Below, one piece after another: positions 4,705 to 56,535 of a stretch of DNA of 64,000 bases. The notes under the pieces are model-generated. The model did no database searches and was not told the origin of the DNA. It worked only from the letters and a program-made list of their open reading frames with translations. The DNA comes from Saprospiraceae bacterium (lineage in GTDB: Bacteria; Bacteroidota; Bacteroidia; Chitinophagales; Saprospiraceae): positions 1-64,000 of the forward strand of contig JALHQW010000028.1 of the NCBI GenBank assembly GCA_022841745.1, read 5' to 3'. Numbering within the stretch: the stretch's first letter is position 1; every line of letters starts with the position of its first letter. Both the position numbers and the translations under genes were made by a program.

Positions 4705-4777
4705 GTTTCGAGTTCCGAGTTCCAAGTTTTGAGTTGGCGTCCAACTCGTAACTCGAAACTCGTCACTCAAAACTTGG
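4705..4777. repeat. Short-word repeat folded as an inverted repeat
   Basis: Left half is built from variants of the word GAGTTCC / AAGTTTT (4705-4737). Right half is built from the complementary word AACTCG / AAACTTGG (4741-4777). The halves pair around a 3-base spacer, including CCAAGTTTTGAGT against ACTCAAAACTTGG. The structure resembles the one inside the E1 dehydrogenase gene at 36561. Confidence 0.75.
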
Positions 4778-22109: not shown

Positions 22110-22293
22110 TTGCTAAAAAAATTGGTCAGGTAAAACTTGGAGCGCCAAGTTAGGGAAATGTTCGTGGTGAGGAAATTTCAAGGCAAAAGTTTTATTCCAC
22201 AAACCGCTACCCTACCCAACAACTGCCAGCACCGTTAAGGCAACGCCTGCAAATGGCTATTTAAAGAGGAACGCAATTAGAGTTGATGGCAGT

Positions 22294-22456
22294 CGCCCTT
22301 GAGAGGCCGGGTTATCAAACCCGGCTGTTCCTCGCCCTTGAGAGGCCGGGTTATCAAACCCGGCTGTTCCTCGCCCTTGAGAGGCCGGGTTATCAAAACC
22401 GGCTGCTCCAGAACGCCGGGGTTTGATAACCCCTTCTCTAGAAGGCGGCTGCTAAA
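22294..22456. repeat. Three 39-bp tandem hairpin units plus an inverted relic
   Basis: The 39-base unit begins CGCCCTTGAGAGGCCGGGTT and contains the hairpin GCCGGGTTATCAAACCCGGC. Units start at 22294, 22333 and 22372; the third has small changes. A fourth piece, GCCGGGGTTTGATAACCCC (about 22415-22433), is a related stem in the opposite orientation. It lies in the region upstream of the NuoE-NuoF start and upstream of the DUF5916 gene on the other strand. There are no spacers, so it is not a CRISPR array. Confidence 0.85.
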
Positions 22457-25215: not shown

Positions 25216-26610
25216 ATGCTGATAAAAGAAAACAGCATTGTGCAAAACCGCTTTGTCGTGGAACGGGAGTGGTCCATTCCCGAGTTGCTGGAGTCATTCG
25301 ACCCGCTGTACGGCGAGCCACTGGCCGAGCGGAATGCTGCCATTCAACAGTTGTTGCCGAAGGCAATGGAAATCTACGACGACCTGAGCGACCTCGCACG
25401 CCTGCGCCTTGAATTTTGGCGGCTTTTTGCTCCGCAACGGGTTGACGAGCAATGGTTTAAGTACACGACTACAGTTACCAATTCCTATACTTGGGAACTT
25501 ACCGTGAATGCCGACGGCTTGTTTTTCAACGACCTATCGGGGGAGTACAGCAGCCATCCCGGTAGGGTTTACGAGCAAATGCACTGCGATTTTTGGTTCT
25601 TCGGCCCCATGATGCCGATGCCCGATTTGGAGATGCGGAAAAGGGTTTTGTCGGTGCTCCGCAATGCGCTCTTAGACGTGGACAGCCCCGTTGCAAAGGC
25701 CCATTTCGAGCTGTTCGAATATCCCTCGCTGGAGATTGCGCCCATGTGGGAGGAAGGCGACCACTACCGCACGGACTATGTCACGCTGCGCAAACACGGC
25801 ATCGAACATGGCGCCACCACTTGGAGGGATGGGCTACTTTACACCTCTTTCATCGCCTATGAGCGTTTTTTGGCGGAGCCAGCCGCCACTTTGGATGGCA
25901 CTATGCTGACGCCAACGATAAGGGAAAGCATCGAACAGCACATTTCTCGGAGGTTCAAGGTAAAGCCCCAATTGGATGACCTTGCCCCAACACCCAATGC
26001 CAAGTCGAAGCAATTGTTCATGGAGGCCAAGGGCAAGCCTAAGCCCAGCCAGCAAGGCTACGAGGCAAGCCCCAAGGAAGAGGAGGTTATTTGGCCTCTC
26101 GAACTCAACGACCGCCTTGCACAGCAGCTGCGGGAATCAGACAAAGAGGAGGTGCTGCGCCAATTGGCGGAGTCGCTGCACGAAAACGGCGCACCCGTGG
26201 CCGACCTGCTTTATGAAGTTGGCAAAGCCGCATTGCCGAAGGCAAAAATGGCCTTGTCCAAGCTGCTCATGGAAAAATACGATCCCGAACGGGGTGTGGA
26301 AGTCCACCTGACACTGCTGGAATACGAAGCACAGGACAGCTATTGGAGGGACTATGTGTTCAGCGCCTTCAATCGGCAGCGGCACAACCCCGCCGTGCAA
26401 CGCTGGTTGGTGCAGTGCCTGCGTGGCGACAACGAGTTGCATTTCAAAAAAGCCGTGGATGTGCTCGTGGGCTGGGGACTGATGTTTGGCCATACCGAGT
26501 TCGCCGACCGGGATATGCTCCGTGCCCTCAACTGGCAGGACGCCTTCGCCGCCGATCCTGATTTCAACAAGGCACTTGAAAAAGTAGTTAAAGTGATTGG
26601 TGATTCGTGA
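25216..26610 (+). CDS. Hypothetical protein, HEAT-like C-terminus possible
   Basis: A 464-residue soluble protein (MLIKENSIVQNRFVVEREWS). The N-terminal 230 residues mix helices and strands. A Lys/Pro-rich linker follows (about 255-280: PTPNAKSKQLFMEAKGKPKP). The C-terminal 180 residues are regular helices (EVLRQLAESLHENGAPVADL, KAALPKAKMALSKLLMEKYD) that could form a HEAT-like solenoid. No enzymatic motif is seen. Translation may be coupled to the membrane protein 4 bases upstream. The last five codons and the stop (VIGDS) lie in a GTGATTGGTGATTCGTGA word repeat that runs on into the intergenic region. Confidence 0.65.
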   Translation: MLIKENSIVQNRFVVEREWSIPELLESFDPLYGEPLAERNAAIQQLLPKAMEIYDDLSDLARLRLEFWRLFAPQRVDEQWFKYTTTVTNSYTWELTVNADGLFFNDLSGEYSSHPGRVYEQMHCDFWFFGPMMPMPDLEMRKRVLSVLRNALLDVDSPVAKAHFELFEYPSLEIAPMWEEGDHYRTDYVTLRKHGIEHGATTWRDGLLYTSFIAYERFLAEPAATLDGTMLTPTIRESIEQHISRRFKVKPQLDDLAPTPNAKSKQLFMEAKGKPKPSQQGYEASPKEEEVIWPLELNDRLAQQLRESDKEEVLRQLAESLHENGAPVADLLYEVGKAALPKAKMALSKLLMEKYDPERGVEVHLTLLEYEAQDSYWRDYVFSAFNRQRHNPAVQRWLVQCLRGDNELHFKKAVDVLVGWGLMFGHTEFADRDMLRALNWQDAFAADPDFNKALEKVVKVIGDS

Positions 26611-26894
26611 TTGGTAACTGGTGATTCGTGATTGGTGATTGGTGGCGCTACCCTGATAATCAATCACCAAATTAGGGGTGTTTAGAAATTTTTTCTTGTT
26701 GTACTTTTCCGGGAGAACATCCCCCTCACCCCCTTCAAAGGGGGAATTCATGTCTGCTAATTTTTACGATTCGAGCAATTTAGCAGGGTCTTATTCCCCC
26801 TTTGAAGGGGGTGAGGGGGATGTTTGGGAGAGATGCTGACACTTCAATTTTTCCTTAACACCACCAATCACGAATCACCAATCACCAATCACCA
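26592..26894. repeat. Nested inverted-repeat element of about 300 bp with short-word arms
   Basis: The outer arms are word repeats in opposite orientation: GTGATTGGTGATTCGTGATT types (26592-26645) and CACCAATCACGAATCACC types (26859-26894). Inside is a perfect 32-bp inverted repeat, 26716-26747 against 26793-26824 (core CCCCCTCACCCCCTTCAAAG). Inside that, CTGCTAA and TTAGCAG form a small third stem. The whole can fold into one long cruciform. It overlaps the 3' end of the gene at 25216-26610 and ends 4 bases before ATG 26899. Confidence 0.85.
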
Positions 26895-26898
26895 TACA

Positions 26899-27264
26899 AT
26901 GCGCTATTTACTCGGTCCCGAACTACTTTGGCTGTTGTTCTACGGCGTGGCCAGGCTCATCGTCAAGGCCAACGTGCCACCTTCCAAGCGGATGGACAAT
27001 TTCATTGACACCTGTTGGTTTTGGGTGCCAGTTGTTTGTGTCATCCTAACCTTTGCGCTGTGGTGGTTGCCCACCGTGGAGCGCCGATGGCTTTTGCCAC
27101 GGGCTTGGGTGGTCGGCATCTTGGGAGGCCATTTTGTGCTGGAAACAATCATGTCGGCGTACAGCGTACAAGGGCCGGGCAGCGGAATGGGCTATTTGGC
27201 AGGGATGATATTGGTATTTTGCCTGCTCGTTGCGGGCAGTGTGGTCATTTTGATTAAATTCTAA
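26899..27264 (+). CDS. Small membrane protein
   Basis: A 121-residue protein from ATG 26899 (MRYLLGPELLWLLFYGVARL). Hydrophobic segments near 5-22, 40-58, 70-88 and 98-118 suggest three to four membrane helices. A repeat tract ends directly before the start, so the in-frame extension to 26824 is not used. No family is recognised. It is followed after 2 bases by the 60-residue gene. Confidence 0.65.
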   Translation: MRYLLGPELLWLLFYGVARLIVKANVPPSKRMDNFIDTCWFWVPVVCVILTFALWWLPTVERRWLLPRAWVVGILGGHFVLETIMSAYSVQGPGSGMGYLAGMILVFCLLVAGSVVILIKF

Positions 27265-36130: not shown

Positions 36131-38239
36131 ATGATTCTAAGCAAAACCAACATACAAAAATCAACCCTCCAGACCGCCTTCCGCCTCATGGCCACGGCCA
36201 AGAGCATGACGGAGGTATTTGAAGAAAACTTCAAGTTCGTCGCCAAGTACGTCCATGCCACCAGCCGGGGGCACGAGGCCGCCCAAATCGCCCTCGGCCT
36301 GCAACTGTTGCCGCAGGACTGGGTAGCCCCCTATTACCGTGACGACTCCATCCTCCTGTCCATCGGCATGACGCCCTACGACCTCATGCTCCAACTCATG
36401 GCCAAACGGGACGACCCCTTCTCCGGTGGCCGGGCCTACTACTGCCACCCCAGCCTAAAGGACGACGACAAGCCCAAAATCCCGCACCAATCCTCGGCAA
36501 CTGGAATGCAAGCTATTCCAACAACCGGGGTGGCAATGGGCATCCAATACCATGAAAATATTTCGGATTACGGATTGCGGATTGCGGATTCAGCAGCCCC
36601 CCAATCCGCAATCCGAAATCCGAAATCCGAAATCGCTGTATGCAGCCTCGGCGATGCCTCCGTCACCGAAGGCGAGGTGGCTGAAGCCCTGCAAATGGCC
36701 GCCCTCAAGCAGTTACCTATCCTCTACTTCGTGCAGGACAACGGCTGGGACATCTCCGCCAATGCCGCCGAGACCCGTGCGCAGGATGCCGCCGATTACG
36801 CCAAAGGTTTTCACGGCATCGAAACGAGGCGCATGGACGGCAGCGATTTTTTCGATTGCTACGCAACCCTGCAAGAGGTCATCAAGACGATGCGGCGGGA
36901 GCGCAGGCCCTTTCTCGTGCATGTGAAAGTGCCGCTACTCAACCACCACACCTCCGGCGTGCGCAAGGAATGGTACCGGGATGATTTGGAGGAGGCACAA
37001 AGCCGTGACCCCTACCCCATTTTCCGAAAGCAATTGCTCGAAGAAGGTTTCACGGAAAAGGAACTTAAAAAACTGGAGGGCGAAGCCCGGAAACTGGTCG
37101 AGGCCGACTACGAGCGGGCCAAGGCCGCCGAAGACCCACGCCCCGAAGACCTCTACACCCATGACTTCGCCCCGACACCCATCACCGAGGAACAGGGCGA
37201 GCGGGAACCTGCCAACGGCGAGGTGAAGGTGATGGTGGACTGCGCCCTCTTCGCCATTGAAGAACTGATGCACAAGCACCCGGAGTGCCTGCTGTACGGG
37301 CAAGACGTTGGCCGCAGGCTCGGCGGCGTGTTCCGGGAGGCAGCGACGCTGGCTGAGAAGTTCGGCGACCACCGGGTATTCAACACGCCCATCCAGGAGG
37401 CGTTCATCATTGGCAGCACGGTGGGCATGAGCGCCGTGGGGCTGCGGCCCATCGTGGAAGTGCAGTTCGCCGACTATATCTGGCCGGGGCTGAACCAGCT
37501 TTTCACGGAGGTGAGCCGCTCCTGCTACCTCTCCAACGGCAAGTGGCCCGTTAGCTGCATCATCCGGGTGCCCATCGGGGCGTATGGCAGCGGCGGGCCT
37601 TACCATTCGAGCAGCGTGGAGTCGGTTTTGACGAACATACGGGGCATCAAAATCGCCTACCCCAGCAATGGTGCCGACCTGAAAGGGCTGATGAAGGCCG
37701 CTTATTACGACCCGAATCCCATCGTGATTTTGGAGCACAAAGGACTTTATTGGTCAAAAGTACGGGGCACGGAGACAGCCAAATGCGTGATGCCCGCCGA
37801 GGATTATGTATTGCCTTTCGGCAAGGCGAGGACGGTGGTTGTTGCGGAGCAAAACGAGGTGGAAAAAGGCCGCACGATGGGCGTCATCACCTACGGAATG
37901 GGCGTCCATTGGGCACTGAACGCCGCCAAGCAATACCCCGGCCAAGTGGAAGTGCTCGACCTGCGCACCCTGTACCCGTTGGACGAAGCCGCCATCTACA
38001 CCATTGCGAAGCGCCATGGAAAATGCCTGGTAGTGACCGAGGAACCCGTTAACAATACCTTCGCCCAGAGCATCGCCGCCCGCATTTCGGAGCATTGTTT
38101 CCAATGGCTCGATGCCCCCGTGCGCACGCTCGGCGCAGCGAACATGCCCGCCGTGCCGCTCAACGAGACGCTGGAGCGGGAGATGATACCAAGCATTGAG
38201 AAGGTGGCCAAGGTAATGGGGGAAGTTTTGGGGTGGTGA
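36131..38239 (+). CDS. Fused alpha-beta E1 component of a branched-chain/2-oxoacid dehydrogenase
   Basis: A 702-residue thiamine diphosphate enzyme that decarboxylates a 2-oxo acid and passes the acyl group to an E2 lipoyl protein. Residues 1 to about 370 are the alpha part with SLGDASVTEGEVAEALQ and QDNGWDIS of the ThDP motif; about 400-702 are the beta part with LYGQDVGRRLGGVF, FNTPIQEAFI and the terminal transketolase-C domain. Alpha-beta fusion is usual in Bacteroidota. Residues about 144-169 (GLRIADSAAPQSAIRNPKSE) are encoded by a folded short-word repeat and replace a variable loop just before the ThDP motif. No E2 or E3 gene is nearby. Confidence 0.9.
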   Translation: MILSKTNIQKSTLQTAFRLMATAKSMTEVFEENFKFVAKYVHATSRGHEAAQIALGLQLLPQDWVAPYYRDDSILLSIGMTPYDLMLQLMAKRDDPFSGGRAYYCHPSLKDDDKPKIPHQSSATGMQAIPTTGVAMGIQYHENISDYGLRIADSAAPQSAIRNPKSEIAVCSLGDASVTEGEVAEALQMAALKQLPILYFVQDNGWDISANAAETRAQDAADYAKGFHGIETRRMDGSDFFDCYATLQEVIKTMRRERRPFLVHVKVPLLNHHTSGVRKEWYRDDLEEAQSRDPYPIFRKQLLEEGFTEKELKKLEGEARKLVEADYERAKAAEDPRPEDLYTHDFAPTPITEEQGEREPANGEVKVMVDCALFAIEELMHKHPECLLYGQDVGRRLGGVFREAATLAEKFGDHRVFNTPIQEAFIIGSTVGMSAVGLRPIVEVQFADYIWPGLNQLFTEVSRSCYLSNGKWPVSCIIRVPIGAYGSGGPYHSSSVESVLTNIRGIKIAYPSNGADLKGLMKAAYYDPNPIVILEHKGLYWSKVRGTETAKCVMPAEDYVLPFGKARTVVVAEQNEVEKGRTMGVITYGMGVHWALNAAKQYPGQVEVLDLRTLYPLDEAAIYTIAKRHGKCLVVTEEPVNNTFAQSIAARISEHCFQWLDAPVRTLGAANMPAVPLNETLEREMIPSIEKVAKVMGEVLGW
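36561..36635 (+). repeat. Short-word inverted repeat inserted in the E1 coding sequence
   Basis: Left arm (36562-36590) is four copies of CGGATT-type words; right arm (36603-36631) is four copies of the complementary AATCCG word. The 29-base arms pair with two mismatches around a 12-base loop CAGCAGCCCCCC. The insert keeps the reading frame. Confidence 0.9.
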
Positions 38240-44026: not shown

Positions 44027-44100
44027 CCTCGGCAGTATCCTGTTTGAGGCCGCAGGTCGCTGGGTGCAATCATGCTGTTTGTTTTCATTTAACCAAAATT

Positions 44101-44160
44101 GTGTCGTTGTGTCGTTGTGTCGTTGTGTCGTTGCGTCGTTGCGTCGTTGCGTCGTTGCGT
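44101..44160. repeat. Octanucleotide tandem repeat (7.5 copies)
   Basis: Four copies of GTGTCGTT, then three of GCGTCGTT and a half copy, 60 bases without a break. It lies upstream of the cargo gene starting at 44026 on the minus strand. The rest of 44161-44471 holds a CCCGACC/GGTCGGG hairpin (about 44287-44303) and AT-rich promoter-like sequence for the next gene. Confidence 0.9.
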
Positions 44161-44471
44161 AAGAAAACCACGGTGTCTGAGATTTGAAGAAAATGTGTCA
44201 TAAAAATAGTTTATAGGTTATGAAAAAAATGAAAAACCTTTGTGTGTGTTTACCATCAACCAGAAATAATACATAGCGAACCCGCCCGACCCATGGTCGG
44301 GTCAATTTTAAGAAAGCCTTATTTAATGTTTGTGTGGATTAAGAAAAATTTTGTGCAATATATGGCCTGAGTTGTTTAAGGCAAAATTATTTAACATTTT
44401 TTTTCAAATTTACAAACTTTGGCTATGGCCGCACATGATGGCCAAAACGCCACTTAACAACGACAAACGTT

Positions 44472-48984: not shown

Positions 48985-49120
48985 AGTTGGCAGTTAGCCA
49001 ATTTGCAGGTGGCAGTCAGTGTGCAGTTGATTAGTCAGGGCCGAGTTGAACGGCTAAAGACTTGAAGACTGTAGACTAAATGACTGACTGCAAACTGCCC
49101 CCTGTCGAACTGACGAACTG
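48985..49120. repeat. Short-word repeat filling the dnaX leader
   Basis: Words such as GGCAGT, GACTG and AACTGCC in both orientations fill about 130 bases from 48985 up to 3 bases before the dnaX ATG (ending CTGTCGAACTGACGAACTG). Left part carries GTTGGCAGTTAGCC, right part the complement-type ACTGCAAACTGCCCC, so the tract can partly fold on itself. Confidence 0.75.
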
Positions 49121-55198: not shown

Positions 55199-55310
55199 CG
55201 GGCCTTTTGGACGTGAGCGCCTTTTTTGGCACAAAACATTCATAAACAAGCGATTGCACCGTACGCCGTCCATCGTTGGCCGTCCACCGTTAATCGTCAA
55301 CCGATAATAC

Positions 55311-56447: not shown

Positions 56448-56535
56448 TCGTCATTGGTCATTAAAGTCATTAGACATTGGAGTCATTGGTCATTAAACAA
56501 TGCTTGACACCCAATGACCAATGACTAATGACCAC
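56448..56535. repeat. Short-word repeat, GTCATTGG / CCAATGAC type
   Basis: GTCATTGGTCATTAAAGTCATT (left, from 56453) and CCAATGACCAATGACTAATG (right, ending 56534) are complementary word blocks around a spacer containing AACAATGCTTGACA. The tract begins right after the preceding stop. Confidence 0.75.

Follow-up and report, generated by a model that had tools for sequence, protein, structure and literature searches.

A short-word hairpin in an E1 dehydrogenase gene and its probable origin from elements that carry an S23 gene

Introduction

An E1 dehydrogenase gene in a 64,000-nt stretch of DNA from a Saprospiraceae bacterium (the whole of which is referred to as the window) carries, in frame, a hairpin made of complementary arrays of a short word. 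The parent of this insert is likely an element in which a PF05635 gene stands between complementary word arms and which, judging from sequence comparisons, is apparently mobile and occurs in many bacterial phyla. Our preferred explanation, which we consider reasonably probable, is that the insert is a gene-less miniature copy of such an element, whose S23 protein would recognise its own word hairpin and promote its copying in trans. Here we describe the anatomy of the elements, the coupling between protein and word, the same unit of gene and word at unrelated sites, in-frame copies in enzymes, and an orthologous site at which forms with and without the gene both occur.

The S23 family is widespread and its function little understood; it gains a testable partner in the form of a lineage-linked DNA word, and is connected to short-word repeats whose spread lacked an explanation in the literature consulted. 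The pairing of repeat and protein offers a specificity that can be read, and the in-frame inserts in the E1 and dehydroquinate synthase genes illustrate how elements can add loops to essential-type enzymes. An earlier sequence-only reading of the window had drawn attention to the E1 hairpin; what goes beyond it is the recognition of a 7-nt unit, the finding that words are exchanged at a single site, and the full form with an S23 gene.

The hairpin in the E1 gene

The host gene (36,131–38,239, forward strand), recognised from its open reading frame and domain matches, encodes a fused alpha/beta E1 protein of 702 aa that matches PF00676, PF02779 and PF02780, and its frame is open across the insert. 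Word and arm analysis places the hairpin at 36,560–36,633, with a left arm of NCGGATT words (36,560–36,590, forward strand) and a right arm of AATCCGN words (36,603–36,633, forward strand), each 31 nt long and together 94% complementary with two mismatches. The arms enclose a 12-nt loop, CAGCAGCCCCCC (36,591–36,602, forward strand), which is similar to the inner right end (GCAGCCCCCC-words) of the source genome’s CGGATT-S23 element. The free energy of positions 36,555–36,640, folded as single-stranded DNA, is −31.4 kcal/mol, whereas shuffles average −10.67 (z −9.05) and none of 200 folds as well. The hairpin noticed in the sequence-only reading is therefore present, and it does consist of complementary CGGATT and AATCCG words; the unit, taken there as six nucleotides, is in fact 7 nt, one free base plus CGGATT, and both arm mismatches fall on the free base.

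About 25 residues encoded by the insert (SDYGLRIADSAAPQSAIRNPKSEIA) come just ahead of CSLGDAS, which we take to be the start of the thiamine-diphosphate motif. The same reading saw an in-frame insert of 75 bp; the frame is indeed open, but the gene has not undergone a clean 75-bp addition, since the shared codons on either side lie 126 nt apart in the source gene and 81–108 nt apart in 25 element-free genes, most commonly 90 nt (14/25), a net gain of about 36 nt. The E1 copy is without an ORF, and no S23 gene is found in its hairpin. A motif that borders the S23 gene, GCAGCCCC or GGGG..CTGC, is kept in the E1 loop, and also in the loops of two of the four other strict CGGATT hairpins among the five that the source genome contains.

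S23 genes between word arms

A pair of CGGATT arms about 0.5 kb apart in the source genome encloses a gene matching PF05635/TIGR02436, the 23S rRNA intervening-sequence protein or ‘four helix bundle protein’ (S23/IVP); 2gsc and 2rld are structure relatives of a related S23. The genome has 13 S23 genes, one of them cut by a contig end, and word arrays adjoin all 13, with 13 different words by eye. The arm unit of full elements is a 7- or 8-nt word.

Arms were scored as the best local match between the upstream and the reverse-complemented downstream sequence, using flanks of 350 nt (400 nt for a set of 19 genus loci), and the scores were compared with 28, the 99th percentile of mismatched pairs, and with 31, the maximum of 187 control ORFs. 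Twelve of the 13 S23 loci of the source genome exceed 28. The genus yielded 133 S23 matches, of which 120 were read (100, 19 and 1), the other 13 being mostly fragments or second pieces of split genes; scores above 31 were obtained for 85/100, 18/19 and 1/1 of these, 104/120 in total, compared to 0/187 control ORFs. Elsewhere in the phylum 18 of 30 S23 loci exceed 28 and 13 exceed 31, while 12 are without clear arms. Among 21 genomes from several phyla, chosen for carrying CGGATT hairpins, 24 of 30 loci exceed 31 and six are without clear arms, two of the 30 coming from G213, which is identical to G012. The RAYT (Y1_Tnp) loci L432–L451 serve as a positive control for this test, since 17 of these 20 score above 31 and their flanks mostly bear, by eye, REP-type inverted palindromes and not words, often with GTAG nearby.

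Of the 148 genomes sampled from the phylum, 113 have PF05635 above the Pfam cut-off. Within a family that is otherwise very variable, a glutamine (207/208 rows) and a glutamate (208/208) are nearly invariant, which argues for a conserved S23 activity; we know of no catalytic role for these residues. Plasmids carry a relative in 24 of 72,556 records, 11 of them from Nostoc, and six of the seven plasmid loci read score above 31, some weakly; Planktothrix has ACGATT words. On Gloeocapsa, Planktothrix and Chlorohelix plasmids (L423, L424 and L426) large genes lie on both sides of the S23 gene, their annotation being that of DUF1156/Swt1-HEPN or DISARM/BREX proteins. Fusion of S23 to other domains was considered and rejected, most of the seven long frames having the appearance of run-ons over arms and neighbours. 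The exceptions are L272 and L273 (G003:C40 and G005:C77), where the S23 frame continues through the right word arm into a DegT/DnrJ-type aminotransferase (assigned by Pfam for L273).

Coupling of protein and word

Across 85 genus loci the similarity of S23 proteins correlates with that of their words (Mantel r 0.53; none of 2000 permutations came above 0.10). The word is shared by 36 of 38 pairs with a relative protein score of 0.8 or more, by 22 of 43 between 0.6 and 0.8, by 7–10% between 0.4 and 0.6 and by about 1–3% below 0.4. Pairs with homologous outer flanks invariably have the word in common (17/17); at unrelated sites, where no flank homology was found, it is common to 41 of 64 pairs and differs in 23. 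When only the closest relatives (score 0.8 or more) with non-homologous flanks are considered, the word is common to 21 of 23 pairs, and the two exceptions have close words (GTGATTC/GTGATTG and AATGGAG/AATTGAA). The coupling weakens beyond the genus (62 loci, r 0.30, 0 of 2000 permutations).

One S23 lineage is accompanied by CGGATT as far as Planctomycetota and Acidobacteriota. Seven of 26 out-of-genus relatives of the source genome’s CGGATT-S23 have CGGATT arms, compared to none of 28 other S23 loci taken from CGGATT-hairpin genomes (Fisher p 0.0037); the rows of G230, G239 and G213, which share identical 300-nt stretches with and are the same as G006, G013 and G012, were removed from these counts. 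The armed relatives are 39–67% identical and belong to Fibrella, a Saprospiraceae bacterium, Phycisphaerae, Sedimentisphaerales and Acidobacteria. On a 210-row S23 tree, which retains two duplicate pairs (L360/L405 and L387/L406), the 15 CGGATT rows need three changes against a shuffled mean of 14.7, with 0 of 500 shuffles as low. Further CGGATT/AATCCG elements, a search for which the sequence-only reading had recommended, do exist; the hairpins occur in at least 119 stretches (L080–L198) from at least 13 phylum-level groups, as judged from titles, counted by eye and with no control pattern alongside. The 82 elements of L080–L159, among the matches listed, most commonly have a left arm of 27 nt and four words (40/82), left words are separated by a free base that is G or T in 205 of 218 cases, and ATT precedes the left arm in 56/82 and AAT follows the right arm in 57/82. 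Viral spread was considered and set aside: CGGATT hairpins are present on four viral contigs, compared to two for the reversed pattern and one for GTGATT, and the one S23 query made against phages gave no match.

At the level of whole genomes the link between S23 and word counts is only weak across the 148 genomes sampled. The number of S23 genes correlates with ATT-word matches (rho 0.58), nearly as well with matches to the reversed pattern (0.54), an imperfect control since it also matches TTA-type words, and less with the excess of one over the other (0.29). A word excess occurs in seven of 32 genomes without an S23 hit (for example, 29 vs 3 in G192 and 17 vs 0 in G097), and is lacking in 12 of 63 genomes with five or more S23 genes; three of 24 CGGATT-hairpin genomes have no PF05635 match, and eight of 34 such genomes have no relative of CGGATT-S23. 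This weak association slightly lowers our confidence in the preferred explanation and in the wider reading given below.

Word exchange in the E1 loop

All 60 relatives searched have some E1-type match, and 32 genes were compared, namely the best 30 loci from this search, that of the source genome among them, plus two partial genes. Alignment of these homologues confines the words to seven genes, all from the source genus and all in frame (7/7), and the same loop was not seen in unrelated genera among the 32. Four word families are represented: CGGATT in the source genome (G000), ACGATT in G001, G011 and G013, GGGTATT/GGGAATT in G008 and G012, and a one-armed CACCAAT array, equivalent to GTGATT, in G004. 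In the other 25 genes, six of which are from the source genus, the loop is ordinary; that of G006 lies outside the comparison.

In a tree of E1 computed with the loop left out the seven bearers group together as a single clade (SH-aLRT 100); one change suffices for the presence of words, whilst the word state needs four, which amounts to one gain and at least three word switches. For this loop only, separate insertions into a hot spot could account for four words, and the ACGATT row L061 does group with the CGGATT row, apart from the other ACGATT rows; the single clade and the single change for presence argue against it, and we regard this reading, which is compatible with the preferred explanation, as possible but doubtful.

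An S23 locus with the matching word was found in the same draft genome for G000, G008, G012 and G013; that of G008 has an arm score of 31, which is not above the control maximum, and the S23 genes of G012 have three candidate words. Among the loci read in G001, G011 and G004 none had the genome’s own E1 word. G001 has one GTGATT S23 locus, whereas its E1 word is ACGATT, and CGGATT-S23 is present in both G001 and G011 despite the ACGATT in their E1 loops.

Gene-bearing and gene-less forms at one site

The most direct evidence that gene-less hairpins and S23 elements represent variants of a single entity, evidence compatible with either form having come first, is provided by a site that has a DUF58 gene on one side and, on the other, a converging gene bearing a type IX secretion signal (Pfam). 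Measured from the end of the DUF58 gene to a shared anchor, a full CGGATT-S23 element spans 586 nt in G000, 517 nt in G001 and 665 nt in G013, where the copy has a duplicated tail; this is the sole site at which the limits of full elements are visible. A gene-less CGGATT hairpin with the same ends occupies the site in G011 (146 nt) and G006 (153 nt), so that, as in MITEs, a gene-less derivative shares its ends with a longer element. In G004 (100 nt) a TTTTATTG-type hairpin lies inside one remaining CGGATT word per side, which suggests that an old hairpin can receive a new word in its interior. In the remaining seven genomes that contain the DUF58 gene the neighbour at this place is, by eye, a different one. 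The element ends overlap and supply stop codons (TGATTGCGG...CCGCAATCA in G000), and none of the elements read showed a transposase gene. The gene-less CGGATT hairpins of G011 and G006 (L455 and L457) themselves contain a second hairpin (GGGAAGTGTGTGCT...AGCACACACTTCCC).

Proposed mechanism and alternative explanations

The full element is composed of a single S23/IVP four-helix-bundle gene flanked by inverted arms of its 7- or 8-nt word. According to the preferred explanation, the S23 protein would recognise its own word hairpin, either as DNA or as RNA, and act in trans to promote the copying of hairpins that lack the gene, along the lines suggested for RAYTs and REPINs, while a separate partner would supply the cutting and copying chemistry. 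Incoming elements may favour existing hairpins, and with such a preference one site would change its word. By analogy, we read this as a REPIN-like logic with a non-transposase protein. A wider reading, which we put forward tentatively and hold to be possible rather than probable, is that these are pan-bacterial two-part selfish elements, in which each S23/IVP reads its own 7–8-nt word and spreads hairpins in trans to intergenic positions, to hairpins already present and, with the frame kept, to enzymes; the orphan heptamer repeats of Bacteroidota, Cyanobacteria and others would then be miniature copies, and rRNA intervening sequences one branch.

Hairpins might instead grow and change by mutation, through slippage and template switching between the arms, with S23 genes as passengers that landed in them. 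One base per unit varies while the arms stay alike, the E1 loops of G004 and G008 look overwritten in place, tandem-only arrays exist and words are found in genomes without an S23 hit, all of which suits this account; yet it predicts neither a word common to close S23 relatives at unrelated sites (21/23) nor the tracking of one S23 lineage by CGGATT across phyla, and we deem it unlikely. The protein–word coupling would fit any cognate binding, including that of an RNA- or DNA-binding regulator with the words as its operators and dispersed arrays regulating other genes. Regulation has been proposed for TAACTGA repeats before start codons (PMC4679880), and some arrays in the window do end beside an ATG (at 26,900 and 55,310). 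Arrays inside the E1, dehydroquinate synthase and other coding regions, or between convergent genes, would however make poor operators, and the word at one site differs between sister species; such a regulatory role appears distinctly unlikely.

Lastly, hairpin transcripts excised by RNase III, as in 23S rRNA intervening sequences, might be reverse transcribed and re-inserted, with S23 acting like the Avd protein of diversity-generating retroelements. S23/IVP resembles Avd (PMC10053308), one S23 gives a weak bAvd-like match, the Coxiella 23S intervening sequence combines a terminal stem of 28 bp with an S23p gene (PMC4990558), and two of nine RVT_1 matches, in G010:C118 and G001:C51, have an S23-like gene within about 0.5 kb. 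RVT_1 is found in just seven of 14 genus genomes (6/10 well-complete ones), and in none of G003, G004, G008 and G012; a reverse transcriptase was accordingly rejected as general mover, and the pairing of reverse transcriptase with an Avd-like gene that marks diversity-generating retroelements is not a general feature of the word elements. The G001:C51 gene moreover sits among REP-like palindromes and not words, and we judge this RNA route very improbable. That gene (L392), with its GCCGAACTGGGGTTCGGC palindromes, perhaps belongs to another kind of retroelement. RAYTs were likewise rejected as mover: Y1_Tnp occurs in 12 of 14 genus genomes, but with REP flanks.

Relation to known systems

The full elements resemble 23S rRNA intervening sequences in that an S23/IVP gene lies inside a long terminal inverted repeat of a few hundred nucleotides (428 nt in total for that of Coxiella; PMC4990558), although the E1 copy is without the ORF. 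They differ in having word-array arms with a 7/8-nt word common within a protein lineage, and in having gene-less copies dispersed between and within protein genes; the copies in the E1 gene, in the dehydroquinate synthase gene and at the DUF58 site are not located in a 23S rRNA helix. With REPIN-RAYT systems they share a gene flanked by its own repeat class, gene-less hairpin copies (doublets) elsewhere and a repeat class that matches the protein lineage. In contrast to these systems, the adjacent gene is not a Y1 transposase but PF05635, there is no REP palindrome, and the RAYTs found in this genus have REP flanks of their own. Rickettsia palindromic elements, compared here by description, are also palindromic inserts tolerated in frame in protein genes but are not word arrays, and to our knowledge have no linked gene.

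Heptamer repeats include TAACTGA repeats, long simple sequence repeats and the cyanobacterial STRR sequences. Tandem heptamers in Bacteroidetes and Cyanobacteria often lie just before start codons (PMC4679880), and the word arrays likewise contain tandem heptamers in several copies; the available portion of that account presents its repeats as direct (one indirect), with no evident mechanism of transfer and no link to S23. Tandem repeats in proteins are known from Borgs (PMC9879509), and further related literature comprises PMC3116915, PMC10910872 and PMC8700078. At title and abstract level, in a literature search mostly of papers outside subscription, no tie between S23/IVP genes and word arrays was encountered.

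Further word arrays in the window and genome

Two hairpins that the sequence-only reading had likened in layout to the E1 insert both exist, built from other words: intergenic hairpins of GAGTTNN words (4,705–4,767; word and arm analysis) and of GTCATTN words (56,448–56,535), the latter beginning right after a TAA. Further word arrays are present in the window, some of them tandem-only. A nested case spans 26,593–26,900, where a GTGATTN array (26,593–26,646) and AATCACN words (26,859–26,900, ending beside an ATG) surround another inverted repeat at 26,716–26,824. The GGCAGTN-type inverted arrays at 48,991–49,112 have the word of an S23 gene of the same genome (L199), and CCGTCNA-type words (55,255–55,310) stand just before an ATG, their counterpart in G007 being a GTAGGC-word hairpin.

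Genome-wide, SNNATTNSNNATTNSNNATT has 237 + 153 matches and the reversed pattern 3 + 4, overlapping matches counted, and in the part of the source genome’s match list considered, 18 of 21 CGGATT clusters run in one orientation only. The words GTCATT, GAGTT, GAGGGAT, CCGACTG and GTGTCGTT have no counterpart among the 13 S23 genes of the source genome. Sixteen distinct word-array loci, hand-chosen from this genome, were translated, and six (L001, L004, L011, L024, L419 and L414) have an open frame of 100 codons or more on each side, which supports the suggestion that such elements can enter genes and be tolerated in frame. At L419 the array interrupts 3-dehydroquinate synthase between two conserved stretches, the second essential-type enzyme to be hit, and the alignment to the solved enzyme 3okf is interrupted where the insert lies (query 255 to 281 vs chain 284 to 291). 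Rfam reports no family in L410, L414 and L455.

Three one-armed CGGATT arrays, L001, L004 and L025 (G000:C1:152404, C1:158321 and C3:24109), have an identical stretch, AGGTGTCGGGACAAGTTCCG, in front of them, as though the words had been joined to a second repeat family. Tandem arrays with an 8-nt unit are found at 44,095–44,164 of the window (GTGTCGTT), in L078 (18,658–18,725; GGGTTTTC, also the word of the S23 gene L202 of the same genome) and in L076 (17,478–17,579; GTGCGTCC). Inverted repeat families without words occur in the window at 22,289–22,452 (GGCCGGGTTATCAAACCCGGC) and, inside the nested array described above, at 26,716–26,824 (CCCCCTCACCCCCTTCAAAGGGGG).
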